Shown here: piece by piece, positions 1-14,199 of the stretch | How positions within the stretch are numbered: position 1 is the first letter of the stretch | Layout of the letters: each line of letters starts with the position of its first letter | NCBI GenBank assembly: GCA_902622875.1 | Contig: CACNRW010000004.1 | Location: 1 to 64,000 of the forward strand | From: an uncultured SAR116 cluster alpha proteobacterium | GTDB taxonomy: Bacteria; Pseudomonadota; Alphaproteobacteria; Puniceispirillales; Marisalimonadaceae | Direction of reading: 5' to 3' | DNA length: 64,000 nucleotides | Made by a program: the position numbers and the translations under genes | The notes under the pieces: model-generated | What the model was told of the DNA's origin: nothing | Databases searched by the model: none | The model's input: the letters and a program-made list of their open reading frames with translations, nothing else

Positions 1-1269
1 TTAGAAAAATACTTTGATTTGTTGTGGCCTTTAATGCGTTCAATAACTGGTTCAGGTTATGAGAAAACTCATGATATTATATCTGAAGTGGTTGATCTTA
101 AAAGAATTTCTTTTAAAACGGGCGAAAAAGTTTTTGATTGGACAATTCCAGAGGTATGGGAATGTAAGGATGCTTATATAATTGATCCAGATGGAAAAAA
201 AATTGTTGATTTGAAGAAAAACAATTTACACGTTGTTAATTATTCAATGCCTGTAGAAATGAATGTTACTCTTAAAAAATTAAAAAAAAATTTATATTTT
301 TTAAAGAATTACTCTGATGCAATTCCATATGTTACATCTTATTACAAAAAAACTTGGGGATTTTGTTTGACTTTTAATCAATTCAAAACATTAAAAGAGG
401 GTACATATAAAATTAAAATTGACTCAAGTTTTAAACAAGGTGAATTATTTGTTAGTGAGGCATATTTAAAAGGAGACAGTAACAAAGAAATTTTTTTTTC
501 AACATACACTTGTCATCCTTCAATGGCTAGCAATGAATTGTCAGGTCCATTGATAAGTATGTTTTTATATTTATGTTTATCGAAGGTAAAAAAAAGAAAA
601 TATAGTTATAGATTTTTATTTAGTGCTGAGACTATTGGTACAATAGCCTATTTAAGTGAAAGATATAAAACTCTTAAAAAAAATATGATTGGTGGATATG
701 TTTTAACTTGTCTTGGAGACAATAAACCTTTTAATTATAAAAACTCTAAAAATATAAACTCTTTAGTCAATAAAGTTGCTCAATACCACTTAAAAAAATC
801 CAAAAATGGTTTGCAAACTATTCATGATTTTTTTCCAACTGGAAGTGATGAAAGACAATATTGTTCTGAAGGCATTGATCTTCCAGTTGGGTGTATAACC
901 AGATCAATGTATGGAAAATTCAAAGAATATCACACGTCAAAAGATAATAAAAATTTTATAGATTTTAGTAGTATGGTCGAAACAATAAAAATTCTATTAA
1001 GGATATGTGAAACTTTTGAAACTAATTTAAACTTCAAATCAACTAAAAATTTATGTGAACCATTTCTATCAAAGTACAACTTATATGATACGATTAATGT
1101 TCCTGATAAAAAAAATATTATTACAGAAGCTATTTTGTGGGTCTTATGCTATTCAGATGGGAAAAATGATTTATTAAAAATTTCTGAGTTGTCAAAAATT
1201 GATTATTTTGATATTTTAACCGCAACTAAATTATGTTTAAAAAATAAATTATTAATAATTTCTAGATAG
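1..1269 (+). CDS. DUF4910-type aminopeptidase-like protein (5' partial)
   Basis: The reading frame is open from base 1, so the true start lies left of the window and the N-terminus is missing. The visible part matches the DUF2172/DUF4910 family, which has an M28-like zinc aminopeptidase fold and usually a C-terminal winged helix. Family hallmarks seen are CHPSMASNELSGP, FPTGSDERQYC and EYHTSKDN; these carry the His, Asp and Glu residues expected to bind metal. The last 70 residues look like the small helix-turn-helix tail of the family. These proteins recur in polysaccharide loci, but their substrate is unknown. The neighbour downstream is pseF, 100 bases away on the same strand. Family membership is confident; peptidase activity is not shown. 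Confidence 0.8.
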   Translation, partial: LEKYFDLLWPLMRSITGSGYEKTHDIISEVVDLKRISFKTGEKVFDWTIPEVWECKDAYIIDPDGKKIVDLKKNNLHVVNYSMPVEMNVTLKKLKKNLYFLKNYSDAIPYVTSYYKKTWGFCLTFNQFKTLKEGTYKIKIDSSFKQGELFVSEAYLKGDSNKEIFFSTYTCHPSMASNELSGPLISMFLYLCLSKVKKRKYSYRFLFSAETIGTIAYLSERYKTLKKNMIGGYVLTCLGDNKPFNYKNSKNINSLVNKVAQYHLKKSKNGLQTIHDFFPTGSDERQYCSEGIDLPVGCITRSMYGKFKEYHTSKDNKNFIDFSSMVETIKILLRICETFETNLNFKSTKNLCEPFLSKYNLYDTINVPDKKNIITEAILWVLCYSDGKNDLLKISELSKIDYFDILTATKLCLKNKLLIISR

Positions 1270-1369
1270 GCTTAACACTTATATTAATATTAACAAAAAA
1301 TCATTAAAGTCAACATCACCAAATCAGTTCAATAAAATTTTTATATCAAATAAAACCTAACTTTTTAAA

Positions 1370-2074
1370 ATGTCAATCATAAGCGAAATACTAGTTGTTG
1401 TGCCAGCAAGAGGTGGAAGTAAAAGAGTTAAGAACAAAAATATAAGATTAATTAACAATAAGCCTATGATAAAATGGACATTAAATGAAATTCTGAAAGT
1501 TATTGACAAAAATAAAATAATCATTTCTACCGATGACGAAAAAACAAAAAGAATTGTTGAAGAAGTTGGGTTAGAAGTCCCATTTACTAGACCAACAGAA
1601 ATTTCAGACGACTTTACCCCAACTCAAGATGTTGCGAAACATGCTTTAAATTGGTATGAAAAAAATAATAGTAAAATCAAATACACATTGATAATTTACC
1701 CAACAGCAATCCTATTGAAACATGTTGACTTATTACATGCATATAATTTTATGAAGAAAAAATCATCGTGTTCTGTATTTTTTACAGCTGGAGAGTTTAG
1801 CCACCCTATTGAAAGAGCTTTTCGGCTTGATAACAAAAAACAATTTAAAATGATAAATCCAAATTTATATAAAAAAAGAACACAAGATTTTGAAAAAACT
1901 TTTTATGATGCTGGACAATTTTATTTGTGCAAATCTGAAATTATAAGAGATTCAAAACCTTTATTTAATAAGAACTCAAATTTTATTGTTTTAAAAAAAA
2001 ACAGGTTCATAGATATAGACAATGAAGATGATTTTGAATTAGCAGAAACATTGCTTAAAAATCAAATTAAATAA
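1370..2074 (+). CDS. pseF: Pseudaminic acid cytidylyltransferase PseF
   Basis: This enzyme activates pseudaminic acid with CTP to give CMP-pseudaminic acid, the sugar donor, in the cytoplasm. The 234-residue protein opens with the nucleotide-binding motif PARGGSKRVKNKNIR (residues 12-26), shared by CMP-sialic acid synthetases. The stretch RTQDFEKTFYDAGQFY (170-185), with FSHPIERA before it, is what separates PseF from NeuA-type enzymes. The ATG at 1370 gives the family's usual length. It lies apart from the other pse genes, which run on the opposite strand a little downstream. A legionaminic or sialic acid cytidylyltransferase is the main alternative, but the motif and the pse neighbours argue against it. 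Confidence 0.88.
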   Translation: MSIISEILVVVPARGGSKRVKNKNIRLINNKPMIKWTLNEILKVIDKNKIIISTDDEKTKRIVEEVGLEVPFTRPTEISDDFTPTQDVAKHALNWYEKNNSKIKYTLIIYPTAILLKHVDLLHAYNFMKKKSSCSVFFTAGEFSHPIERAFRLDNKKQFKMINPNLYKKRTQDFEKTFYDAGQFYLCKSEIIRDSKPLFNKNSNFIVLKKNRFIDIDNEDDFELAETLLKNQIK

Positions 2075-2133
2075 TATAAAAATATAACTGTCAAAGAAAT
2101 ATTATCCATAATTCAGTATTTTATGGTAAGTGA

Positions 2134-2589
2134 TTATTTAAGTTTCATTTCATAATGACATAAATTTTTGTATTGATAATGAAATTTGAAACCAATACCT
2201 TCAAAAGTTTTTTTGCTTGGATAGTTAATTTTTTTTATTTTTGCTTTTAATATACGTATTTTGGGTGAACAATTTTGTAATTTAATTATTGATTCTTTTA
2301 GGCAAAGTTTTGCCAATCCTTGATTTCTTTTATTGGGGTTAAGATTTATAGAAACAAGTCCTGTATCACCTTCAATATCAAATCGTACTAAGCCAATTTT
2401 ATTTTTATTAATATCAACGCACATGAATAAGTGTCTATCTTTATTTTCTAGACTTGAATTAAACCATTTTCTATGTACGCTAATTTTAACAATTTGTGTG
2501 TTAATTGACATTTCCCTTGTTAAGGGGTCATTTCTCCATTGATATATGTCTCTACTGTCTTCGATTGTTGCTAATTCTAACTTTATCAT
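2134..2589 (-). CDS. GNAT N-acetyltransferase, PseH-like
   Basis: A 151-residue GNAT-fold protein. The N-terminus has WRNDPLTREMS (residues 18-28), the pattern typical of PseH and of GNAT domains in nonulosonate loci, and the acetyl-CoA segment NPNKRNQGLAKLCL (84-97) follows. PseH acetylates the 4-amino group of UDP-4-amino-4,6-dideoxy-N-acetyl-altrosamine, the step after PseC. It is the last gene of the leftward pse run, 88 bases after the methylase. PseH is the natural reading because pseB, pseC and pseF are in the same locus, but GNAT specificity cannot be read from sequence, so the symbol is withheld. Confidence 0.75.
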   Translation of the reverse strand: MIKLELATIEDSRDIYQWRNDPLTREMSINTQIVKISVHRKWFNSSLENKDRHLFMCVDINKNKIGLVRFDIEGDTGLVSINLNPNKRNQGLAKLCLKESIIKLQNCSPKIRILKAKIKKINYPSKKTFEGIGFKFHYQYKNLCHYEMKLK

Positions 2590-2677
2590 AAATCATTCCT
2601 ATTAAAGTTTTAGAAAACTTGACTTAATATGACACAAATTAAAATTATCTGATTATTAAATTAGAAAATTTTTTTAA

Positions 2678-3289
2678 TTATTTTTCAAGTAAAAACCATG
2701 TTATATCATCTTGTGGTATTAAGTTATCTCGTTTATAAAAAAATCCATAATCAACTAAGTTTAATCCATAATTTTCTATTAAATCTCCAGCAAAATCTCT
2801 CTTAAATAATCGGTTTTTATGTCCTCTATATGTAACACTAACTGGTGCAGGATTATAATATTCAGCTATTAATACATATCTTTTAGACCCTTTGACAAGA
2901 TTATCATATACATTAGTTAAATATTTTGGATTGATATGAATTAGTACACCTGTTGTAAATGTCAAATCAGCTTTTTTACCATTTATTTGATTTAATATCG
3001 AACCTTGTATTATTTTAGCTATGCCTAATTCTTTTGCTTTCTTAGCAGCCATCTCATTTATTTCATAACCACTTAGTTCTAACTTTGGTTTGATTCTTTT
3101 TAAAGCCATTAAATTTAAACCTATGTTACAGCCAAGTTCTTTAATCATATGAATATTATTCGTAGAACGTAACATTTGTGTCCACATAGAAATTTTTGAA
3201 TGAATAAGGTGTTCAGAGTTATTCCTCTCGATATAATTCAATCCAAACTCTCCAGCCCAAAAATTTTCTTGATCTGTTTTATATAACAT
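2678..3289 (-). CDS. Pseudaminic acid biosynthesis-associated methylase
   Basis: A 203-residue class I SAM-dependent methyltransferase. The opening FWAGEFGLNYIERN (from residue 10) and SAM-binding motif ELGCNIGLN (51-59) match the family named pseudaminic acid biosynthesis-associated methylase (TIGR03587), which occurs almost only in pse loci. Later motifs include FTTGVLIHINP and the tyrosine-rich AEYYNPAPVSVTYRGH. The acceptor in this family is not established; a methylated nonulosonate or a pathway intermediate is likely. It sits 24 bases downstream of the unrecognised 527-residue gene, probably in one transcript. Confidence 0.85.
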   Translation of the reverse strand: MLYKTDQENFWAGEFGLNYIERNNSEHLIHSKISMWTQMLRSTNNIHMIKELGCNIGLNLMALKRIKPKLELSGYEINEMAAKKAKELGIAKIIQGSILNQINGKKADLTFTTGVLIHINPKYLTNVYDNLVKGSKRYVLIAEYYNPAPVSVTYRGHKNRLFKRDFAGDLIENYGLNLVDYGFFYKRDNLIPQDDITWFLLEK

Positions 3290-3313
3290 TAATTCAGCCT
3301 TTTAAATTCGTAA

Positions 3314-4897
3314 CTAAAATGCATGATCACCTCCAATTTGATTTTTAGCAATTGAAAAAAAATATGCATCCATATGATATGTTTCAGCCGTAACTATACA
3401 CCAACCAACTTTATCCTCAAATAATGATATTAATTCGTCATCGTGATCCTTATCTAAGAAAAAACTTGAATTTGACTTTAAAACAATTTTTCTTTTTAAA
3501 ATAATGCCTTCATAATTAACGAACTCAAATAAAAAATTTGTTTCACCAGAAAAATTATTTATTAATAATTCAGTGTTGTGAATACTTGCAACAAAGTTTT
3601 GACTTCCACCTAATGGAAACCATCTGCGTGTAAAAGGCTTGTTTAAACTATTTTCATTTATAACTAGAGGTGAAAAACATATATTTGTACCTAATTCTGC
3701 TTCTTTTCTTTTAACGTTAAAACCTAATTTAAATCTTTTGGGGAAAGGTTTTTGATTACCAACGAAACCAAGAAACAAAGAATATTTATCGCTATCTGAG
3801 GGTAAAGACGCAGTTGTAGCCTCAGAAGACATATCAAAAGAAGACATTTGACAAAGCAATTTAACTTCTCTGTTTTCTAAAGCTCTCTTAAAAACCAGTT
3901 TTCCATTTTTTGAATAAATTCTAAGTTCCACGTGCCCTTCAAATTTTAAATTCTGACCATAGCTAATTAGAGATGTCTCAAATTTATTAGTAGGAAAGAT
4001 AGGTACCATGAAAGCACTATCAAAAACACTCGAAGAAGTATTCTTTGATCTAAAATTAAATTTATTAGCATCTAAACTATTAAAACGCTTTTCAGAAGTA
4101 TCAAAAAATGTATGTGTCAATGTAGGAACATTTAGTTTATTAATTATACCAACATAAAATCTTGGAAAAACATCATCTAAGTTATGGTATATAATAGCTT
4201 TTGGATTCTTAAACTTTAAAATATCTTTTTTAAAAAATAAATCTTCAATAAAAATTGTATGCATTTGTCCATATTGATGATTAGCAAGCCGGATACACCT
4301 TTTCTCAGTAAAGTTCCTTTCTTCTAATAATATAGTTAATTCATATTGTTTTTGGTTTCCACCAATAAAGCATATATAATTTTTTTTTGATGAAGAAAAT
4401 ATAATATCAAAACCAGTTTGAGGAAAGTTAATCGCATAATCTTTAATTTGTTCAAATTTATTATAAGTTCTAATACAACTGTGAACTATTGAACTGCTAT
4501 CGTTAGAATGAAAGGAAAGACTAATTGCTGGAAAAGTATATAAAGGTTTTAACTTAGAGAATACTTCAACTTCAATTGATCCACAAAATCCATTTCCATC
4601 AGTATTAAATAAATTATATACATTATATGTAACAGCACAAAATTTTAGAATAACGCGGTAATTCTTGGCTAAAATATTTCCTTTTATATCTCTAGCCACA
4701 AATCTAATTATAACATTTGTGTTATGTTTTCTAACCCAATAAGTTAAAAATTCTAAGGACACTTTAGTTTCTTTCTTTTTGAAAACAGGAAAAATTGTAG
4801 AAGAACGATTTTGATTTGATAAAAAAACTTCGTAATTACCTATATCATCATCATTCAAATTTTTTAAGTTTTTCCAAAATTCATCATAACTTTCCAT
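3314..4897 (-). CDS. Unrecognised 527-residue protein of the pse locus
   Basis: I do not recognise a family. The start is taken at the ATG at 4897, which has an AGGA about ten bases upstream; a TTG two codons earlier is possible. The protein has no signal peptide or membrane segment. It is rich in alternating hydrophobic and aromatic residues that suggest mostly beta structure, for example VELRIYSKNGKLVF and FLFEFVNYEGIILKRK, and it ends in GGDHAF. Conserved-looking pieces include YGQMHTIFIEDLF, TRRWFPLGG and IHNTELLINNFSG. It lies between two methyltransferase genes in the leftward pse run, so a role in modifying, assembling or recognising a pseudaminic-acid glycan is inferred from position only. 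Confidence 0.7.
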   Translation of the reverse strand: MESYDEFWKNLKNLNDDDIGNYEVFLSNQNRSSTIFPVFKKKETKVSLEFLTYWVRKHNTNVIIRFVARDIKGNILAKNYRVILKFCAVTYNVYNLFNTDGNGFCGSIEVEVFSKLKPLYTFPAISLSFHSNDSSSIVHSCIRTYNKFEQIKDYAINFPQTGFDIIFSSSKKNYICFIGGNQKQYELTILLEERNFTEKRCIRLANHQYGQMHTIFIEDLFFKKDILKFKNPKAIIYHNLDDVFPRFYVGIINKLNVPTLTHTFFDTSEKRFNSLDANKFNFRSKNTSSSVFDSAFMVPIFPTNKFETSLISYGQNLKFEGHVELRIYSKNGKLVFKRALENREVKLLCQMSSFDMSSEATTASLPSDSDKYSLFLGFVGNQKPFPKRFKLGFNVKRKEAELGTNICFSPLVINENSLNKPFTRRWFPLGGSQNFVASIHNTELLINNFSGETNFLFEFVNYEGIILKRKIVLKSNSSFFLDKDHDDELISLFEDKVGWCIVTAETYHMDAYFFSIAKNQIGGDHAF

Positions 4898-5049
4898 ACC
4901 CAAAAATCCTAAGGAATTAATTCGTGATAAATCACATAATAGTGATCTAATAGTTAAATTCTATAATATTTTTGATTTTTCAAAAAATTAGAAAATGTTT
5001 ACTTTTCTAATTCTCCAAACTATTTCAGTATTTAACTAAATAAATATCT

Positions 5050-5862
5050 TTAAGAAGGCCTCCAAGATAATACTGAAGTACCATTTTTTTGATTTATACA
5101 AATAAAATTTGGTAAGATCTCTTGTATAGAGATTAATTTTTTTTCTTTTAGTTTCTGAAGTAGGGAAAATAAATTAGTATTATAATCATTCATCTTGGCG
5201 TATTGTTGACTAGACCCCTTTTTAAAATTATTTGGTTTTATTTGCCAACCTATTGGCTCAAAATGAATGCAATCAACATTATTTTTCAGTTCAATTATTT
5301 TTTTAAAAAATTCAATATCTAATTTTGGTATCTGTTCAATTGAATGAACTGTAACGAAAATGATGTGGCCTTTAATAGAATTTAAAAAATCAAAATTTGG
5401 TTTATAAAAATTAAAACTTAATGATTTGTAATCTATACTCTTTTCCATTGACGCTAAAGTGTCCGCAGCAATTCTTCCCGATTTAGTAAACTCTAACCCA
5501 AAATATTTTATATTTTTAGGAGCACCATAGAGCCATGTCCAAAATAAGTTTCTCCCATAACCACTTCCAATTTCAATAATTGCCTCAGTTTTTTCATTGC
5601 ATTTGTCTATAATTTTTTTGCAGATAAAAGATTGATTTCCACTAATAGAAAAATCTACTGATAACTTAACTTCTTGTTTGTCAAATATAATATCAATAAA
5701 ATTTTTATTACTTTTGTTTCTAAATTCCTTATTTATATTATTTAGTGCCCTTGTTAAATTATTATCTCCACTTTCTTTTTGCTTTTTTAACAAATCAATA
5801 ACTAAAGGCCATTTATCTTCATTATACTCCCTTAAAACAAAATTTCTGTTACGTTGTAGCAC
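5050..5862 (-). CDS. SAM-dependent methyltransferase-like protein of the pse locus
   Basis: A 270-residue protein with a class I methyltransferase core. The SAM-binding glycine motif is EIGSGYGRNLFW (residues 97-108), followed by an acidic strand end (YFGLEF) and a later strand IIFVTVHSIEQIP. The first 90 residues are a helical, lysine-rich extension. Its resemblance is to putative sugar O-methyltransferases, but no catalytic residues can be assigned. It lies 152 bases upstream of the unrecognised protein and 313 bases after pseB, on the same strand. A modification enzyme for the surface glycan is the likeliest role. Confidence 0.65.
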   Translation of the reverse strand: MLQRNRNFVLREYNEDKWPLVIDLLKKQKESGDNNLTRALNNINKEFRNKSNKNFIDIIFDKQEVKLSVDFSISGNQSFICKKIIDKCNEKTEAIIEIGSGYGRNLFWTWLYGAPKNIKYFGLEFTKSGRIAADTLASMEKSIDYKSLSFNFYKPNFDFLNSIKGHIIFVTVHSIEQIPKLDIEFFKKIIELKNNVDCIHFEPIGWQIKPNNFKKGSSQQYAKMNDYNTNLFSLLQKLKEKKLISIQEILPNFICINQKNGTSVLSWRPS

Positions 5863-6175
5863 TTAAAACCTATATGTTTAAATAGAAATGATAATTTCAT
5901 ATTTGATACAATATAAGGTAAAGATATTTAATAATCTATAAGTAAATACAAATAAAAAATATAATAATAAATCAAGAAATAATATTTGCACCACAAGTTT
6001 ACTTAAAAATATTTGTTTAATTTATTTAAGTTAAGGTTATAGAAATAAATAATTTCAATATTTAAAGAGTAAGCGTGGAATAACTACTGAAAACTGAATG
6101 TGTGGGATTAATAATTTATATATTAACATACTAAATTTTTTAGCCTATAACAAATTTTATAACTCGTTATAATAT
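5863..6175. other. Noncoding gap inside the leftward pse run
   Basis: These 313 bases are strongly AT-rich. I see no open frame with coding character, tRNA, GC-rich hairpin or direct repeat. Since both flanking genes run leftward, it probably carries a secondary promoter for the methyltransferase and the genes after it; none is distinct enough to mark. Confidence 0.5.
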
Positions 6176-7201
6176 CTAATTCGTTAAGCTTGTTTTTTTC
6201 ACAATATTAACAAGGTCAGTTTTAGTCAACCAAAGGTTGTTTTTGTCACTTGTGTACTCAAAATCATTCATTACATTTTTTTTATCTTCAAACATTTTGT
6301 AGGTTTCACCGAAGGATATAGAAGGTAAAACAACAAATCGATCATGCAGTTCAAATGTATATTTTGCATCGTCTTTATTGATCATAATTTCATGCAATTT
6401 TTCACCAGGTCTAATTCCAATGATTTTTATTTTGTTGTTAGGTGCTAAAGATTTGGCGATATCTATTAATTTCATACTTGGTATTTTGGGTATAAAGATT
6501 TCACCACCACACATTGTATTGAGACAACTTAAAACAAACTTTATTCCATCTTCTACTGATATCCAAAAACGAGTCATTTCAGGATCTGTAAGCGGAATAT
6601 TTAAATTTTTGTCTTTTGCTATATTTAAGAAATATGGAATTATACTACCCCTTGAACCAATTACATTTCCATATCTCACAACAGAAAAGTTAGTTTTTCT
6701 TTGAGACAAATGATTTGCCGCAACGAAAATCTTATCAGCAGCCAACTTGCTTGCACCATATAAGTTGATAGGATTGACAGCTTTATCTGTTGAGATTGCA
6801 ATAACTTTTTTAACATTTTTATTAATACATGACCTCACTAAGTTTTCAGCCCCAATTACGTTAGTTCTAATACATTCAAAAGGATTATACTCTGCAGAAG
6901 TTACTATTTTCATTGCAGCAGCATGAATAACAATATCTATTCCTGATAAAGCCATGTCTAATCTTTCTCGATCTCTAACGTCCCCTAAAAAAAATCGAAG
7001 ATATGGAAAATCTTTTATTTTATATTTTTGTGCGAGTGAATATTGTTTTTGCTCATCCCTAGAAAAAATCACTAGTCTTTTTGGTTGGTATTGTTTTGTT
7101 ATTAATTCTAAAAGGCTTTTACCAAAAGAACCAGTGCCTCCAGTTATTAATATACTTTGGTTTTCTAGGGATGTCTTTTTGTTGTTAATCGATTTGTTCA
7201 T
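6176..7201 (-). CDS. pseB: UDP-GlcNAc 4,6-dehydratase (inverting) PseB
   Basis: First enzyme of the pseudaminic acid pathway: it dehydrates and C5-epimerises UDP-GlcNAc to a 4-keto-6-deoxy-altro sugar. The 341-residue extended SDR has the NADP motif GGTGSFG (residues 21-27), then HAAAMKIVTSAEYNPFE and STDKAVNPINLYGASK. Asp139, Lys140 and Tyr148 sit at the spacing of the catalytic triad of Helicobacter FlaA1 (Asp132, Lys133, Tyr141). It follows pseC by 22 bases on the same strand, so the two are co-transcribed. The membrane-bound retaining dehydratases are much longer, so this short soluble form fits PseB. Confidence 0.92.
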   Translation of the reverse strand: MNKSINNKKTSLENQSILITGGTGSFGKSLLELITKQYQPKRLVIFSRDEQKQYSLAQKYKIKDFPYLRFFLGDVRDRERLDMALSGIDIVIHAAAMKIVTSAEYNPFECIRTNVIGAENLVRSCINKNVKKVIAISTDKAVNPINLYGASKLAADKIFVAANHLSQRKTNFSVVRYGNVIGSRGSIIPYFLNIAKDKNLNIPLTDPEMTRFWISVEDGIKFVLSCLNTMCGGEIFIPKIPSMKLIDIAKSLAPNNKIKIIGIRPGEKLHEIMINKDDAKYTFELHDRFVVLPSISFGETYKMFEDKKNVMNDFEYTSDKNNLWLTKTDLVNIVKKTSLTN

Positions 7202-7223
7202 AATTAAAGACTCTCAAATTTAT

Positions 7224-8405
7224 TTATCGTATTAGTTTAAGTATTTTTTCTGCAACATATTTAGCATCTTTGGAACTCATAGAAGGAAACAAGGGTATAG
7301 ATAAACATTTTGAATAATATTTTTCTGAATTTTTAAAGGTTTGTTTACTCTCTTTGTCTATATATTGTGGATGTAAATGAAGTGGAATATAATGAACTTG
7401 AGTTATAATATTATGCTCTCTTAATTTTGAAATTAATTCAGATCTTGTAATGTTTATTTTTTCAAAATTTATAAAGATGGGATATAAATGCATACCATGG
7501 ATCTGATTTTCTATTTTTTCAATAGGCTTAATATTTTCTTGTTCTGAAAATAACACATCGTAAATATCCCAGATTATTTTTCTTTTACGTTGCAATTTAT
7601 AAATTTTTTTTAATTGAGATATACCTAAAGCACAACTGATATCATTAAGTCTGTAATTTAGGCCCACCTCTTGGACTTCATAATACCAAGGGTTAATATT
7701 GCCCTTAATATCAACGGCATTATAAGGTTCAATAAAATTTTCTGAGTTTCTCTCGATACCATTTTCTCTAGCTTTAATAAGTTTATCATATATGCCTCTT
7801 TTATTTGTTGTTACCATTCCACCTTCAATAGTTGTAATTGTTTTTACAGGATGAAAGGAAAAAGTTGAACATTCGGCAAAGTCAGTTAGACTAGATCCAT
7901 AGTTGTTAACATTTGCTGCTAGTGCGTGTGATGCATCAAATATCAATTTAATTTTTTTCTCAACGCAAATTTTACTAATCTTTTCAACATCACAAAGTTG
8001 TCCGTTTAAGTGAACTGCGCATAAAATTGTTGGTTTTAGGTGATTATTATTTTTTATACATTCTTTTAATTCTTTTGTTCCAACAAGTCCTGTATTAGGG
8101 TTAACATCGCAAAGGATAATTTTAGCATTGCATATTTTGAACGCGTGAGCAGTCGCTGCAAAAGTGATTGTTGGAACTATTACTACATCTTTTTCACTAA
8201 TATTTAAAGCCATAGATACTAAGTGGAGCGCGGCTGTTCCATTAGAACATGAGACAGAATATTTGGCGCCACAATACTTTGAGAATTGATTTTCAAATTG
8301 TGATGAGGTTAGTCCACCAGTAATAATGTCTCCTTTCAACTTCTCAACTACTGCCTCGACGTCTCTTTTATCAATATGTTGTTTACTATATGGATAAGAT
8401 TTCAT
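7224..8405 (-). CDS. pseC: UDP-4-keto-6-deoxy-AltNAc aminotransferase PseC
   Basis: PLP-dependent aminotransferase that places an amino group at C4 of the PseB product, with glutamate as donor. The 393-residue protein belongs to the DegT/DnrJ/EryC1 family. The cofactor lysine is Lys188 in FHPVKTITTIEGG, and FDASHALAA (156-164) supplies the aspartate that contacts the PLP ring. SCSNGTAALHL near residue 52 binds the phosphate. It is the first gene of the leftward run and directly precedes pseB, the usual pair. Other DegT sugar aminotransferases look similar, but pairing with an inverting dehydratase settles the choice. Confidence 0.9.
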   Translation of the reverse strand: MKSYPYSKQHIDKRDVEAVVEKLKGDIITGGLTSSQFENQFSKYCGAKYSVSCSNGTAALHLVSMALNISEKDVVIVPTITFAATAHAFKICNAKIILCDVNPNTGLVGTKELKECIKNNNHLKPTILCAVHLNGQLCDVEKISKICVEKKIKLIFDASHALAANVNNYGSSLTDFAECSTFSFHPVKTITTIEGGMVTTNKRGIYDKLIKARENGIERNSENFIEPYNAVDIKGNINPWYYEVQEVGLNYRLNDISCALGISQLKKIYKLQRKRKIIWDIYDVLFSEQENIKPIEKIENQIHGMHLYPIFINFEKINITRSELISKLREHNIITQVHYIPLHLHPQYIDKESKQTFKNSEKYYSKCLSIPLFPSMSSKDAKYVAEKILKLIR

Positions 8406-8604
8406 ATTTCTAATTAAAAACTTTAAGAATTAATAACACTTGGATTACAATAACTTTATATTAAAATGAAGTATAGAATTTTTACTAGTCTTTAAAATAT
8501 ACTCATTAGTTAAATTTTATTAAATTGATTTAACAAAATATTTATCATATACCTAAAATTAATAATATCTAATTGTTAAATAAAATCAGGAATTAAATAC
8601 TAAA
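8406..8604. promoter_or_regulatory. Divergent promoter region of pseC and the epimerase operon
   Basis: About 200 bases lie between the divergently transcribed pseC (leftward) and the epimerase gene (rightward). Promoters for both arms must lie here or further inside the genes. The sequence is almost pure A and T, so individual -35 and -10 boxes cannot be picked with confidence, and neither start codon has a clear ribosome-binding site. Confidence 0.4.
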
Positions 8605-9603
8605 ATGAAAACAGATAGACCATCTGTAATTTGTATAACTGGTGGGGCAGGACTAATAGGTTCTTTTTTAACAAAATGTTTAGCTGAAAATAAACACGTT
8701 AATAGTAAAATAGTAGTAATTGATGATTTTTCCACTGGCCTGCAATCAAATTTATTTCCATTTAAAAACAATATAGAAATTAGAGAAGGAGATTTAGAAT
8801 CAAAGAGTTTCTGTAACGAAGCTTTTACAGATTGTGATATTGTATATCATTTGGCTAGCAGAGCATTTGGAATAGGCTATAGTTCACAAAATCAATTAGA
8901 AATGTTAATTCATAATGAGAGAGTTACAACAAATTTAATTGATACTCTTAGAAAAGTTAAACCAAAAAAACTATTAATTACAAGCTCGTCTTGTGTTTAT
9001 GATGATAATAGCCAAACTCCGATTGCAGAAGCACCAATATTCGATGGTTATCCAGAATATTCTAACAGAGGTTATGGTTGGGCAAAAAGATTCTTAGAAC
9101 AAAAATCAATATTATTGTCCCAAGAAACAGGAATTAATTTGATCACTGTCAGACCTTTTAATATTTATGGAGAAACATATAAATGGAGAGGAGACGCCTC
9201 ACAAGCTATTCCAATGCTTGTAAAAAAAATATTAAGTAAAGAGAAATCAATAGAAGTTTGGGGAAGTGGAGATCAAAGGCGTAGTTACATCCACGCTCTT
9301 GATTGTGCAAGAATAATGCATAAACTTATGGAACTAAATTATAATTGTGGTCCAGTTAATATTGGGACACAAGAAACTGTATCTATAAAAAACTTAGTAT
9401 CCATAATATCAAAATTGTCTCAATATAAACCGAAAATTAATTTCAACATAGATAGACCAGAAGGCAGACATAATAAAAGCTCAAATATTAACTTATTATC
9501 TGAAATTTTGCCAAATTTTCAATATAGTATTACTCTTGAAGAAGGTATGAAAAGAATGCTAGATTGGTATAGTAAAGTTTTTGATCCTAAAAATTCTGAA
9601 TAA
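8605..9603 (+). CDS. NAD-dependent sugar epimerase/dehydratase (extended SDR)
   Basis: A 332-residue nucleotide-sugar epimerase or dehydratase. It has the NAD motif GGAGLIGS (residues 13-20), the serine strand ITSSSCVYDDN (125-135) and the catalytic YGWAK (157-161). HLASRAFGIGYS and RPFNIYGETYKWRG resemble the GDP-mannose 3,5-epimerase and UDP-glucuronate decarboxylase branches, where a cysteine after the serines takes part in epimerisation. Cys130 in SSSC is in that position. The actual substrate is not readable. It starts the rightward run and ends eight bases before the next glycosyltransferase, so it likely makes a sugar donor for that run. Confidence 0.8.
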   Translation: MKTDRPSVICITGGAGLIGSFLTKCLAENKHVNSKIVVIDDFSTGLQSNLFPFKNNIEIREGDLESKSFCNEAFTDCDIVYHLASRAFGIGYSSQNQLEMLIHNERVTTNLIDTLRKVKPKKLLITSSSCVYDDNSQTPIAEAPIFDGYPEYSNRGYGWAKRFLEQKSILLSQETGINLITVRPFNIYGETYKWRGDASQAIPMLVKKILSKEKSIEVWGSGDQRRSYIHALDCARIMHKLMELNYNCGPVNIGTQETVSIKNLVSIISKLSQYKPKINFNIDRPEGRHNKSSNINLLSEILPNFQYSITLEEGMKRMLDWYSKVFDPKNSE

Positions 9604-9611
9604 AAACCTCA

Positions 9612-10700
9612 ATGATTAAATTAGCCATTTCTTTTCCATTAAAGGGAAGACAAATAAGAAACCAAACTGGTAATAAGCCAAAAGAATTTTATTATGGATC
9701 TATTGGTCTAAGTGAAAAATATAATGTAGTTATGGTTGATAGTAGAAAAGAACCTAACGGAGTCGTTTTAAAATTTCTTTTATATTTTGAAAAATTTATT
9801 AATAGGATCATCTCTTTTGGTTTTTATAAAAGTAGAGTTTATGCAAACAGAAAAAAGTATAAAGAACATAATATTATAATAAGTTTTACAGATTTTTATA
9901 GTTTAAACTTAGGATTATATTATAAGAATATGCCTGGTCAAAAAATTGTTGGTGCTTTTCATGGTTTGTCCGATATTATCAGCAAATTTCCTATTTATGT
10001 TAAACATTATGTTTCTTATAAAATAAGAAAATCATTAAAAAATTTAGATCATTTGATTTTTTTTGGAAAGGCAGACATGAATGAAGCTGTAAGAATTTAC
10101 GGTTTTGATTTAAACAAGGCTCATCTTTTAAAATTTGGAATAGATCATCTATTTTGGACCGAAAATTATAATTCTGAAGAAACAATTGATATTTTATGTG
10201 TAGGATCAGATGTAAATAGAGATTATGAAATTTTGAAGAAGATAAGAAAAAATATTAAGATTAAGTTATTAACATCAAAAAAAATTGATTTATCCATTAA
10301 CCCAAATATAAGTTATTTAAAAGGAAGTCTTCACGAGTCTGAAACCACAGATGAGGATCTAAGAAAGTTCTATCATTTGTCTAAAATAGTTCTTATTCCT
10401 CTTCACGACGTTTTTCAGCCAAGCGGATATAGCGTTGCTTTACAAGCCATGTCTTGTGGTAAATTAGTTATTATTTCAAAGATTAAAGGTATTTTTGATG
10501 AAAAATTCTTAAAAGACAGGCATAATATATGTTTTGTAAAACCAGGTTCTCCAAAATTACTTCAAGACTCTATTGATAAGTTTATTAATAATAAGAATAT
10601 CAGAAGGAAAATTGGAATTAATGCACGTAAAACAGTTGTAGAAAACTTTACTTTAAAACACATGTCTAATTCATTAGAAGAGATATTAAATAAAATATAG
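9612..10700 (+). CDS. Glycosyltransferase, GT-B fold (GT4-like)
   Basis: A 362-residue soluble glycosyltransferase of the GT4/GT1 type. The C-terminal nucleotide-sugar domain is the clearer part, with LIPLHDVFQPSGYSVALQAMSCGKLVI matching the E-x7-E region of GT4 enzymes although the first Glu is replaced (QPSGYSVALQAM). A helix RRKIGINARKTVVENF closes the protein as usual. The N-terminal acceptor domain (FHGLSDIISKFP, near residue 118) is divergent. It follows the epimerase by eight bases and presumably uses its product or acts on the same glycan. Acceptor and donor are unknown. Confidence 0.75.
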   Translation: MIKLAISFPLKGRQIRNQTGNKPKEFYYGSIGLSEKYNVVMVDSRKEPNGVVLKFLLYFEKFINRIISFGFYKSRVYANRKKYKEHNIIISFTDFYSLNLGLYYKNMPGQKIVGAFHGLSDIISKFPIYVKHYVSYKIRKSLKNLDHLIFFGKADMNEAVRIYGFDLNKAHLLKFGIDHLFWTENYNSEETIDILCVGSDVNRDYEILKKIRKNIKIKLLTSKKIDLSINPNISYLKGSLHESETTDEDLRKFYHLSKIVLIPLHDVFQPSGYSVALQAMSCGKLVIISKIKGIFDEKFLKDRHNICFVKPGSPKLLQDSIDKFINNKNIRRKIGINARKTVVENFTLKHMSNSLEEILNKI

Positions 10701-10922
10701 AATAAGGAAAATGGATTTAGCTTTTCATAAACAATTTTTTTTAAACTAATGGCAGAAATTAACAATACTAATTTCTTTAATATGGCGAATACTTTAGATA
10801 AAAAAAATCATTGATTTAGATCATATGAAAATAAATTCTAAAAGTTTTTCAAAAAAATGCTCAAAAATGTAACTTTTAATTATTAAATGAATTTATAAGA
10901 ATATTTTTTTAGGGATATATTT

Positions 10923-11945
10923 ATGAAAGTCGCAATCGGTTATAAAATACAAAATGGTCCATGGGGCGGTGGAAATGCTTTTGCAAAATCTTTATCTGAA
11001 TTTCTAAAAAAAAAGGGTAATGATGTAGTATATAACTTAAAAGACAATGATATCGACATAATATTGCTAACTGATCCAAGAGGTAATAGTCCTCAAATTT
11101 CGATAGATGCAGGAAAAATTATAAGATATTTAATTTTTAAAAATAATAAAGCTTTGATAGTGCACAGGATTAATGAATGTGACGAAAGAAAAGGTACTAA
11201 AAGGATGAATAGTCTATTAAAAAATGCTAACTTTTTTTCTGATCATACGGTATTTATAGCATCATGGCTTAAACATTTAAATTTATGGAATAGAAATAAC
11301 CATTATTCTGTTATATTGAATGGAGGAGATAAAAAAATTTTTAATAAAAAAAAAAATAAAAGGTGGGACAAACGTACACGAATTAAATTAATTACTCATC
11401 ATTGGGGGGGGAATGAACTTAAGGGTATGGATGTTTACAAAAAATTTGATAAAGTCCTAGATGAGCCCTATTGGAAAAATAAAATTGATTTTACTTACGT
11501 TGGAAATATACCTGGGAACCAGATTTTTAAAAATATTAAACATATAAAACCAATCTCCGGACAAAAATTATCGGATGTGATAAGTTCTCATAACATATAT
11601 ATAACAGCTTCAATCAATGAACCAGGAGGCATGCATCATATAGAGGGTGGCTTGTGTGGGCTTCCTATTTTATATAGAGACAGTGGTTCACTTACTGAGT
11701 ATTGCAAAGGATATGGTGTGCCTTTTAAAAATGTAAATGATGTTTTATTTTCACTTGAAAAACTTATTACTAATTATGATTATTATTATGCAAGAACTTT
11801 AAATTACAATAGGACTTCAGATTTTATGTGTAAGGAATATTATAAATTATTTAATGACTTGTTAAAAAGTAAAAATAAAATTTTACAAAAAAGGGATTTT
11901 TACTCCAATCCTTGGAGACTGCTCAGAACTCAAATACTTATTTGA
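10923..11945 (+). CDS. Glycosyltransferase, GT-B fold, with a decayed paralogue downstream
   Basis: A 340-residue GT4-like protein. The start MKVAIGYKIQNGPWGGGNAFAK has the glycine-rich loop that opens GT-B acceptor domains, and the donor domain has SINEPGGMHHIEGGLCGLPILY with the acidic pair of the family (Glu in EPGG and Glu in IEGG), followed by DSGSLTEYCKGYG. Start and length agree with the alignment to its pseudogene copy, which begins about 180 bases after its stop. A TTTAGGGA-like ribosome-binding site precedes the ATG. The 222-base gap before it is AT-rich and featureless. The donor sugar is unknown. Confidence 0.75.
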   Translation: MKVAIGYKIQNGPWGGGNAFAKSLSEFLKKKGNDVVYNLKDNDIDIILLTDPRGNSPQISIDAGKIIRYLIFKNNKALIVHRINECDERKGTKRMNSLLKNANFFSDHTVFIASWLKHLNLWNRNNHYSVILNGGDKKIFNKKKNKRWDKRTRIKLITHHWGGNELKGMDVYKKFDKVLDEPYWKNKIDFTYVGNIPGNQIFKNIKHIKPISGQKLSDVISSHNIYITASINEPGGMHHIEGGLCGLPILYRDSGSLTEYCKGYGVPFKNVNDVLFSLEKLITNYDYYYARTLNYNRTSDFMCKEYYKLFNDLLKSKNKILQKRDFYSNPWRLLRTQILI

Positions 11946-12129
11946 AATTTTAAAATTATACTTAATCCAATTAAAATTTTTTGATTATAAAATTTTACTA
12001 TCAATGAGTACTAATAAAAATAAAATTAAATAAAATAGAAATTTTTGTTCTCGAAGTTAAGGAGTTTTGAAAAAGTTTTTCAAATTTTGAAAATTCCTAT
12101 CAAAATCATTACTGAAAAACAACAAATTT

Positions 12130-12975
12130 CTATTCATATGGATGAAGTTAATGTGCTGAAAATAGCTTTGGTAAAGAATTGACAGTTTCTCTATTAAAAA
12201 AGGATCATTTAGTTATTTACAGTTTAAAAGATAAAAACATAGATATTATTTTATTGACTGATCCATGACCGTTTTCTCTATCTGTTTCTTTTAGTTCTGA
12301 GGCGATACCTTAGGTATTTATTACTTATTAATAAAAATGCATTAGTGATATAGAATGAATGAGTGTGACAAGAGAAAAAACAAAGTTATGAACAGAACTT
12401 TAATAAGAGCTAATTACCTACCAGAAATTTATAGCGTTATTTTAAATAGGTCTAACAAACATATTTTATAAAAAAACTGGAAAAGAGGAATAAAAAAGAA
12501 AAACTTAAGATTGTAACCCATTACTGGGAGGAAATTTTGTGTAAAGTTTTTATATTAGTCACAAATTGACAAAATGTTAAAATTAAAAAATGGGGAGGTA
12601 GAATTAATTTTACTTATATAAGTAATTTACCTTGCGGATTTCAGGATAAAAATTTAAATTACATAAAACCTTTAACTAGGAAAAATTTGTATGATTATAT
12701 AAAATAATCATATCTATATAAGTGCTTCACAATTTTAGCTAGGTGGAAATTAAGAAAACGAAGCAGGTTTATGCGTTATTCTATACTATTCAGAAATAGT
12801 GGTTATTTGCCTGAATATTTTAAAAGTTATGGTATAGCTTTAATCAAACAAATTTTGAACAATCTTTGCTTAAAATCATAAATAAATATTAATACTATTA
12901 TAATAAAATGGATAATTATCTTTATTTATTTGGTAAAACTTGTGAAAAACATTTAAAAAGTTTGAATGTTTAATC
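12130..12975 (+). pseudogene. Decayed tandem copy of the preceding glycosyltransferase
   Basis: Broken reading frames here align in order to the intact protein at 10923-11945. Near 12220-12270 the bases read SLKDKNIDIILLTDP then a stop, against NLKDNDIDIILLTDPRG in the live gene. Later matches are CDKRKNKVMNR (near 12365), YSVILN (near 12431), VTHYW (near 12514), INFTYISNLP (near 12603), NYIKPLTRKNLYDYI (near 12656) and PEYFKSYGIA (near 12810). Multiple stops and frameshifts interrupt it, and about 25 codons after the RAN match near 12410 are missing. This is an old duplication that has decayed beyond use. The remaining bases of the 1138-base gap on each side are AT-rich with nothing visible. 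Confidence 0.88.
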
Positions 12976-13083
12976 AAAAAAAACAATTTCATATTTTCAA
13001 AAGAAAAAACTTGAGTTATCCATTCAAATTGTTAAGTAGAATTATTTATTTTTAGTGTATAATTAGATTTAAGAAAAAATATT

Positions 13084-14199
13084 ATGAAACAATATATAAA
13101 ATTTTTTTTATTCTTTTTACATGTTAAATTTTGGTTTTGTCTTAAATTTCTAAAAATATGGAAAGAAGACAATTGTAAAATCAGATTTGTAAGTGAAAAT
13201 AAAAATTGGTCAATATATGATGACGGATTTAATATTACAAAAATAGTAAATTTAAGAAAAAAAAATTCAATGAAGATAATTTTTTTTCCTAAATATTATG
13301 AAAATAATGTTATCCATTTTGGGTCTCAATATATGTGGGTTGATTGGTACAAATACTTAAATAAGAAAAATAAATACGTTGTATCATTTTTTCATGGTAA
13401 GTTTGAAGATGGGCCAGAGGTTTCAAAGCACATAAAAAAATTCATAGAAAGTGTACCATTTTTATCAGCAATAATAACAGCATCAAATATCGTGAAACAA
13501 AGACTTTTGAATTGGGGGATACCAAAAGAAAAATTATTTTTAATTCCTATTGGTGTTGATCTTAAAGTATTTTATCCTGTCAGAAAAAGCTTGAAAAAGC
13601 AAATTCGTAATAAATACAAAATTCAAACAAATGAAATAGTTATTGGTTCTTTTCAAAAAGATGGTCAGGGGTGGGCTGATGGAAATTCACCCAAACTAAT
13701 TAAGGGTCCTGATATATTCATCGAAGTCATTAGAATTTTGAGACAAAAAGGGTATAAAATAAAAGTGTTTTTAACTGGACCTGCCAGAGGCTATGTGAAA
13801 AATAAACTCTCTAATATGAATGTGCCTTTTATTCACGAATTTGTTGATAATAGTAATGAAATGAGTCAAAGATACAGACTGTTAGATTGTTATTTAATTA
13901 CTTCTAGAGAAGAGGGGGGACCAAAGGGACTTATAGAAGCAATGGCTAGTGGAGTTCCTGTAATTTCAACAAATGTTGGAATGGTTAATGATCTTCTAGT
14001 AAATGGTAAAAATGGATCGGTTTCATATAATTTTGACCCCAAGGAATTGGCCAATAATGTAGAAAAAATTATTGATAATAAAAAATTGAGAGAAATGTAT
14101 GTAAAAAATTCATTTTCAAAATTAAATGAGGTCAAGTGGGAGACTGTTGGCGATCATCATCTTAAAAAAGTTTATGAACCTCTAATTCAACTTAAATGA
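13084..14199 (+). CDS. Glycosyltransferase family 4 protein
   Basis: A 371-residue GT4 enzyme. The linker and donor domain are canonical: NWGIPKEKLFLIPIGVDLKVF, then GPDIFIEVIRILRQKG, then SREEGGPKGLIEAMASGVPVI, which carries the E-x7-E type motif, and NVGMVNDLLVNGKNG. The N-terminal 30 residues are hydrophobic (FFLFFLHVKFWFCLKFL) and may anchor it to the inner membrane. It follows the pseudogene and is followed by a terminator-like hairpin, so it may be the last gene of its transcript. Donor and acceptor are unknown. Confidence 0.85.
   Translation: MKQYIKFFLFFLHVKFWFCLKFLKIWKEDNCKIRFVSENKNWSIYDDGFNITKIVNLRKKNSMKIIFFPKYYENNVIHFGSQYMWVDWYKYLNKKNKYVVSFFHGKFEDGPEVSKHIKKFIESVPFLSAIITASNIVKQRLLNWGIPKEKLFLIPIGVDLKVFYPVRKSLKKQIRNKYKIQTNEIVIGSFQKDGQGWADGNSPKLIKGPDIFIEVIRILRQKGYKIKVFLTGPARGYVKNKLSNMNVPFIHEFVDNSNEMSQRYRLLDCYLITSREEGGPKGLIEAMASGVPVISTNVGMVNDLLVNGKNGSVSYNFDPKELANNVEKIIDNKKLREMYVKNSFSKLNEVKWETVGDHHLKKVYEPLIQLK

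Follow-up and report, generated by a model that had tools for sequence, protein, structure and literature searches.

A predicted four-domain beta-sandwich protein of SAR116 and other Alphaproteobacteria encoded beside methyltransferase genes in pseudaminic acid clusters

Results and Discussion

Computational analysis of a 64-kb window (nt 1 – 64000 of contig C4 of a 1.96 Mb draft genome) revealed a gene (nt 3314 – 4897, minus strand) for a 527 aa protein with a predicted four-domain, internally repeated fold, a fourth domain whose model matches a known fold, and linkage to genes for pseudaminic acid (Pse) biosynthesis and to methyltransferase genes. The protein probably binds carbohydrate in some role. 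We consider it possible, at somewhat below an even chance, that its ligand is Pse, CMP-Pse or a Pse glycan and that the adjacent methyltransferase is its partner; here we infer the ligand, the partnership and the order of events. Such a reading would explain why an unannotated gene recurs in alphaproteobacterial clusters for modified sialic-acid-like sugars, and would point to how the methylation of such bacterial sugars is organised.

The gene and its operon

The open reading frame check gave 527 codons and a stop, read from nt 4897 to nt 3314. The start is the ATG at nt 4897, with the sequence AGGA about 9 nt 5' of it, and the first possible in-frame start is a TTG at nt 4903. The G+C content is 0.34, 0.30 and 0.16 at first, second and third codon positions, the last value being typical of a coding gene in an AT-rich genome. 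Relatives of essentially full length, at 50, 44 and 32% identity, rule out a chance ORF, and the gene is confirmed as real. The preliminary description had spoken of a beta-rich protein ending in GGDHAF, without recognisable domain or export signal, whose gene exceeds all others of the leftward pse run in length, and all of this was borne out. Neither Pfam nor NCBIfam gave a match even at E=1, a search of PDB sequences found nothing, and an alignment of the family (16 rows) had no match of a useful level to PHROGs, NCBIfam or Pfam; the family is thus without any model in the libraries searched. The product has no N-terminal signal and no transmembrane segment (highest 19-residue hydropathy mean, 0.9).

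The leftward run reads, in order of transcription, PseC, PseB, a methyltransferase-like gene, the 527 aa gene, a methylase and a PseH-like gene. The PseC-type aminotransferase (nt 7224 – 8405) scores just below the cut-off of TIGR03588, and PseB (nt 6176 – 7201) is over that of TIGR03589. Flanking by two methyltransferases, as had been proposed, is firm on the downstream side only. There, 24 bp from the 527 aa gene, lies the pseudaminic acid biosynthesis-associated methylase (Pse_Me-ase, nt 2678 – 3289, minus strand; TIGR03587, E 1e-77), and the same pairing is found at one other SAR116 locus (L026). The upstream gene (nt 5050 – 5862, minus strand) is probably a class I methyltransferase, judged from its motif alone: it carries IIEIGSGYGRN, common to a weak relative, L069 (VIYEFGAGTGHN), and has no significant family match in Pfam, NCBIfam or PDB sequences. 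A weak PDB match of this gene to a geranylgeranyl synthase (E 0.008, 56 residues) was judged to be due to chance. The run ends with a GNAT acetyltransferase gene (nt 2134 – 2589, minus strand) that is only PseH-like (33 bits against an equivalog cut-off of 93).

On the plus strand are PseF (nt 1370 – 2074; TIGR03584, over cut-off) and, with its 5' end cut by the contig end, a gene for a DUF4910/DUF2172/HTH_47 protein (nt 1 – 1269) that matches the solved structure 3k9t. The latter product appears to be a protein like Campylobacter Cj1295, an aminopeptidase-like polysaccharide biosynthesis protein. Cj1295 is required in C. jejuni for di-O-methylglyceroyl pseudaminic acid (PMC3068675). A full-text literature search for Pse together with SAR116, and for the name of the Pse methylase, found no paper.

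Four beta-sandwich domains and their fold

The AlphaFold model of the whole protein (pLDDT 82, pTM 0.85) is all beta and consists of four tandem sandwiches of 7 – 8 strands, in which the order of elements is much alike: two strands, three strands, a short helix and three strands. Repeat 1 spans residues 28 – 150 (nt 4448 – 4816), repeat 2 residues 155 – 272 (nt 4082 – 4435), repeat 3, the most divergent, residues 288 – 412 (nt 3662 – 4036), and repeat 4 residues 422 – 527 (nt 3317 – 3634). Profile-profile comparison indicates that the protein is internally repeated (E 5e-5 for repeats 2 and 4, 8e-5 for 1 and 2, 2e-4 for 3 and 4, and 3e-4 for 1 and 4), and all six pairs of repeats outscored 60 of 60 column permutations as well as the reversed profile.

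Folded alone, domain 4 (pLDDT 88, pTM 0.82) matched Thermotoga maritima TM1070 (1nc7) in Foldseek (E 2e-4, TM 0.63), and the two superpose with a Z score of 10.6 (99 of 116 residues at 2.7 Å). For the Anabaena sensory rhodopsin transducer (ASRT), Z was 8.2 – 8.3 (2.4 Å over 83 residues), and the next-best matches, cellulosomal carbohydrate-binding modules, fell well below these (Z 6 – 6.7). TM1070 and ASRT were grouped by De Souza, Iyer and Aravind as the ASRAH superfamily (PMC2739507), for which sugar binding was argued from gene neighbourhoods, structure and a ligand-filled cleft (PMC2739507), and whose domains usually occur as tetramers, dyads or tetrads (PMC2739507). Domain 4, the one domain searched alone, shows the TM1070/ASRT fold over its whole length. 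Its profile found nothing significant among PDB sequences (one match, E 1.4), and alignment of the repeats with six ASRT proteins by hhalign gave a best E of 0.095 (repeat 4), a score reached by 6 of 60 permutations; sequence homology to ASRT is therefore not claimed. The predicted domain 4 shows a good fold resemblance to ASRAH, and membership of the superfamily is putative.

The solo ASRT-like family (PF07100; 1nc7; Anabaena ASRT, 2ii7) shares with the 527 aa protein the eight-stranded beta-sandwich (in domain 4), a conserved tryptophan where strand 1 begins, a cytosolic location, sugar-metabolism operons, and small units acting as four. Its members are single domains of about 120 aa, whereas here four divergent repeats lie in one chain, without significant sequence similarity and linked to nonulosonate and methyltransferase genes. 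The ligand signature SHEshChhN was seen in no repeat of the family alignment, and PF07100 had no match in the family, so a four-domain protein of 527 aa was not filed as ASRT-like. Four domains per polypeptide are likewise described for ASRAH tetrads that form part of secreted N-acetylmuramoyl-alanine amidases (PMC2739507), but the 527 aa protein has neither an amidase domain nor a signal peptide. Its building block resembles a known superfamily, and a cytosolic tetrad in nonulosonate operons is absent from the 2009 account (PMC2739507).

With the whole four-domain model, Foldseek and VIA-align returned only sandwiches of generic kinds (tandem Ig, MG and GH2; TM about 0.1, Z no higher than 6.4), which were uninformative. 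As the Ig matches belong to receptors, pilins and phage tails, and the region around one family copy bears an integrase, a bystander might be considered, in which an exported multi-Ig protein of structural, adhesin-like or phage-like nature happens to be encoded within a pse cluster. We regard this as very unlikely, given the lack of a signal peptide or transmembrane segment, the repeated operon linkage to cytosolic enzymes, and the finding that phage records, plasmids and viral contigs contained no relative. No confident match to a characterised family unrelated to glycans, which would have spoken against the preliminary reading, appeared.

Conserved residues

Identity between clades of the family is about 15%, and 14 or 15 sequences have a letter in each invariant column of the 16-row alignment. 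Twelve residues are invariant: G73, E111, A124, H139, R143, R246, H262, P299, Y313, R388, W426 and H525. Of these, E111, H139 and R143 fall in repeat 1, R246 and H262 in repeat 2, P299, Y313 and R388 in repeat 3, and W426 and H525 in repeat 4; D266 of repeat 2 is kept in 12 of 14 sequences. The histidines H139 (repeat 1), H262 (repeat 2) and H525 (repeat 4) co-align. The C-terminal GGDHAF (nt 3317 – 3334) is the last strand of repeat 4, and H-x-F or H-x-Y closes every homologue whose C-terminus is visible, so the motif is part of a conserved domain and not a tag. W426, in strand 423 – 430 of repeat 4, occurs in each of the 15 sequences that reach this column and is not general in repeats 1 – 3. 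In strand 2, an asparagine is chiefly a feature of repeat 1 in members outside SAR116: at column 52, 11 of 15 sequences have N, and those of SAR116 have S/T. Repeat 2 has it in 6 of 15 sequences (column 179) and repeat 4 in just 3 of 15 (N441).

That three arginines (R143, R246, R388) and three histidines stay invariant at such low identity is to be expected if they bind an anionic ligand. The same six residues, with E111 and Y313, could also be read as a catalytic or metal site between sandwiches, in which case the protein would be a new pathway enzyme that modifies a nonulosonate by acyl transfer or as a lyase or hydrolase, a role in keeping with a gene context that otherwise consists entirely of enzymes. 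We consider an enzyme unlikely: none of the fold searches returned a known catalytic fold, no nucleotide-binding or hydrolase motif was seen, and small tandem sandwiches with co-placed histidines resemble repeated binding sites. The preliminary description had left a choice between enzyme, scaffold and glycan-binding protein; domain 4, by its resemblance to a superfamily with predicted sugar binding, favours the last two, so that the description is partly supported. A sister clade remote from pse genes was also found (see below).

Gene neighbourhoods of the relatives

Gene context was compared at 15 loci with a tblastn matrix and family scans of selected neighbours. Nine are clearly linked to pse genes (the window, L026, L023, L040, L021, L029/L030, L043, L025 and L039), and they span SAR116 and several other alphaproteobacterial groups. 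Since a 20-kb pse cluster takes up at most about 1% of such a genome, this is far beyond chance. Wherever a pse-linked locus shows both its flanks (eight loci), a methyltransferase is the next or next-but-one gene; L025, which ends just after the family gene, falls outside this count. The neighbourhoods thus bear out that homologues recur in pse clusters beside methyltransferases, of the TIGR03587 family in the window and L026 and of TylF type near the family gene of L023, L040, L021, L029, L039 and L043. A ninth pairing is seen in L041, a short contig on which only a TylF gene is visible, and no PseI match was found in that genome. Gaps between the family gene and the methyltransferase are mostly short and operonic (24 bp in the window, 30 bp in L026, 12 bp in L023 and 16 bp in L040). 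In L040 the start of PseI is repeated in inverted orientation right after the family gene (nt 12202 – 13829), probably an assembly artefact.

That two methyltransferase families alternate in one place suggests that the function of the 527 aa protein is tied to methylation itself and not to one enzyme. We propose a cytosolic, probably non-catalytic sugar-binding protein, in which one chain with four ASRAH-fold domains would replace the tetramer of small TM1070/ASRT proteins. Its ligand may be pseudaminic acid, CMP-Pse or a short glycan that contains Pse, and the probable contacts are the invariant histidines and arginines found repeatedly close to the final strands of the repeats. The protein would hold or present this sugar to the adjacent methyltransferase, of TIGR03587 or TylF type, which would O-methylate the sugar or its N-acyl group. 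Intracellular sugar binding has been predicted for ASRAH-type sandwiches since 2009, but we know of no established ligand; with an ASRAH-like family fixed in pse operons, the choice is reduced to a small set of compounds that are open to synthesis and assay. A stronger form of the proposal, which we think doubtful, is that the protein is the obligate non-catalytic subunit of a two-part machine for nonulosonate O-methylation, a single-chain ASRAH-like tetrad that would deliver Pse or CMP-Pse to whichever methyltransferase family is present; if true, this would be an intracellular ASRAH-fold protein with a defined ligand.

For intracellular solo ASRAH proteins a sugar-sensing or regulatory role was proposed (PMC2739507), and the 527 aa protein, being cytosolic and embedded in an operon, might similarly sense how much of a sugar intermediate is present and modulate pathway enzymes or a transferase by contact, instead of presenting substrate. 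The tight pairing specifically with methyltransferases, and not with transporters or regulators, makes such a sensor unlikely. The methyltransferase linkage would also suit an adaptor for glycan transfer or export that recognises flagellin glycans or polysaccharides by their methylated Pse cap and passes them on, and there is a precedent in the Wzt-type carbohydrate-binding domains, beta-sandwiches that read methyl caps (PMC9445017). The C-terminal domain of Wzt, from the O-antigen ABC transporter, is also a cytosolic beta-sandwich of a methyltransferase-coupled system and reads an often methylated sugar cap, but it is single and fused to an ATPase, and the resemblance concerns a possible role only. 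An adaptor appears quite unlikely, as no ABC transporter was seen tied to the family, no Wzt domain was among the fold matches listed, and the nearby glycosyltransferases vary between loci.

Distribution

Fourteen distinct relatives of the protein were found, all in Alphaproteobacteria; those named in genome records belong to SAR116-cluster genomes. The family is patchy, being present in 3 of 58 genomes of the host family and 1 of 40 of the genus, and profile searches detected it in other alphaproteobacterial families and orders as well. Among 398 genomes of the phylum, no member lay outside the Alphaproteobacteria. A peptide-pattern scan of genome contigs gave only three SAR116 loci, its patterns being narrow, and whole-genome profile searches recovered more.

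Besides SAR116 and TylF clades and L043, the tree of the family has a clade with full support, made up of L042, L009 and L022; this sister clade is unlinked to pse genes and located away from them. L022, L024, L027 and L042 have no clear pse genes nearby, which weighs against the Pse reading, although their genomes carry PseI/NeuB-type synthases. Two of the unlinked copies, L027 (G046 C7, nt 2301 – 9812) and L022 (G687, nt 6587 – 10031), are near guaA. The intervening stretch in L027 has two integrase-like genes and a small H-NS-like gene, which suggests an integrated island, in a single-cell assembly where a chimera is possible.

Pathway chemistry

A single run on contig C16 of the same genome (L065, nt 284 – 9755) holds genes for a carbamoyltransferase, HisH, a HisF/WbuZ-like protein, a glycosyltransferase-like protein, the WbuX amidotransferase and PseI, and is probably the missing part of its Pse route. 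It is syntenic with contig C13 of G003, a related genome in which the PseI/WbuX/HisF/HisH run and the pse and family genes are on one contig. The presence of PseI with WbuX, HisF and HisH homologues suggests an amidino-type Pse. FkbH-type genes occur in the clusters of L040 (TIGR01686), L021 and L029 (both by tblastn); together with the Cj1295-kind gene of the window, which recalls di-O-methylglyceroyl-Pse, they make methylated acyl substituents as plausible a target of methylation as ring hydroxyls.

Several further features of these clusters were observed. In the Pse clusters of L040, L021 and L030, an SpsF/PseF-like cytidylyltransferase is fused to an aminotransferase resembling glutamate-1-semialdehyde aminomutase. 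PseG is fused to a formyltransferase domain in L023 (nt 10790 – 12511), and L028 carries a formyltransferase-acetyltransferase fusion (nt 1597 – 2826), both of which point to N-formylated nonulosonates. L028 has weaker PseB/PseC-like genes and shares with L026 a context of PIG-L, AnmK and etherase genes. The genes for AnmK-like proteins (anhydromuramic acid kinase) and MurNAc-6-P etherase-like proteins lie within the nonulosonate clusters of these two SAR116 genomes (L026, nt 5924 – 7819; L028, nt 3525 – 5400).
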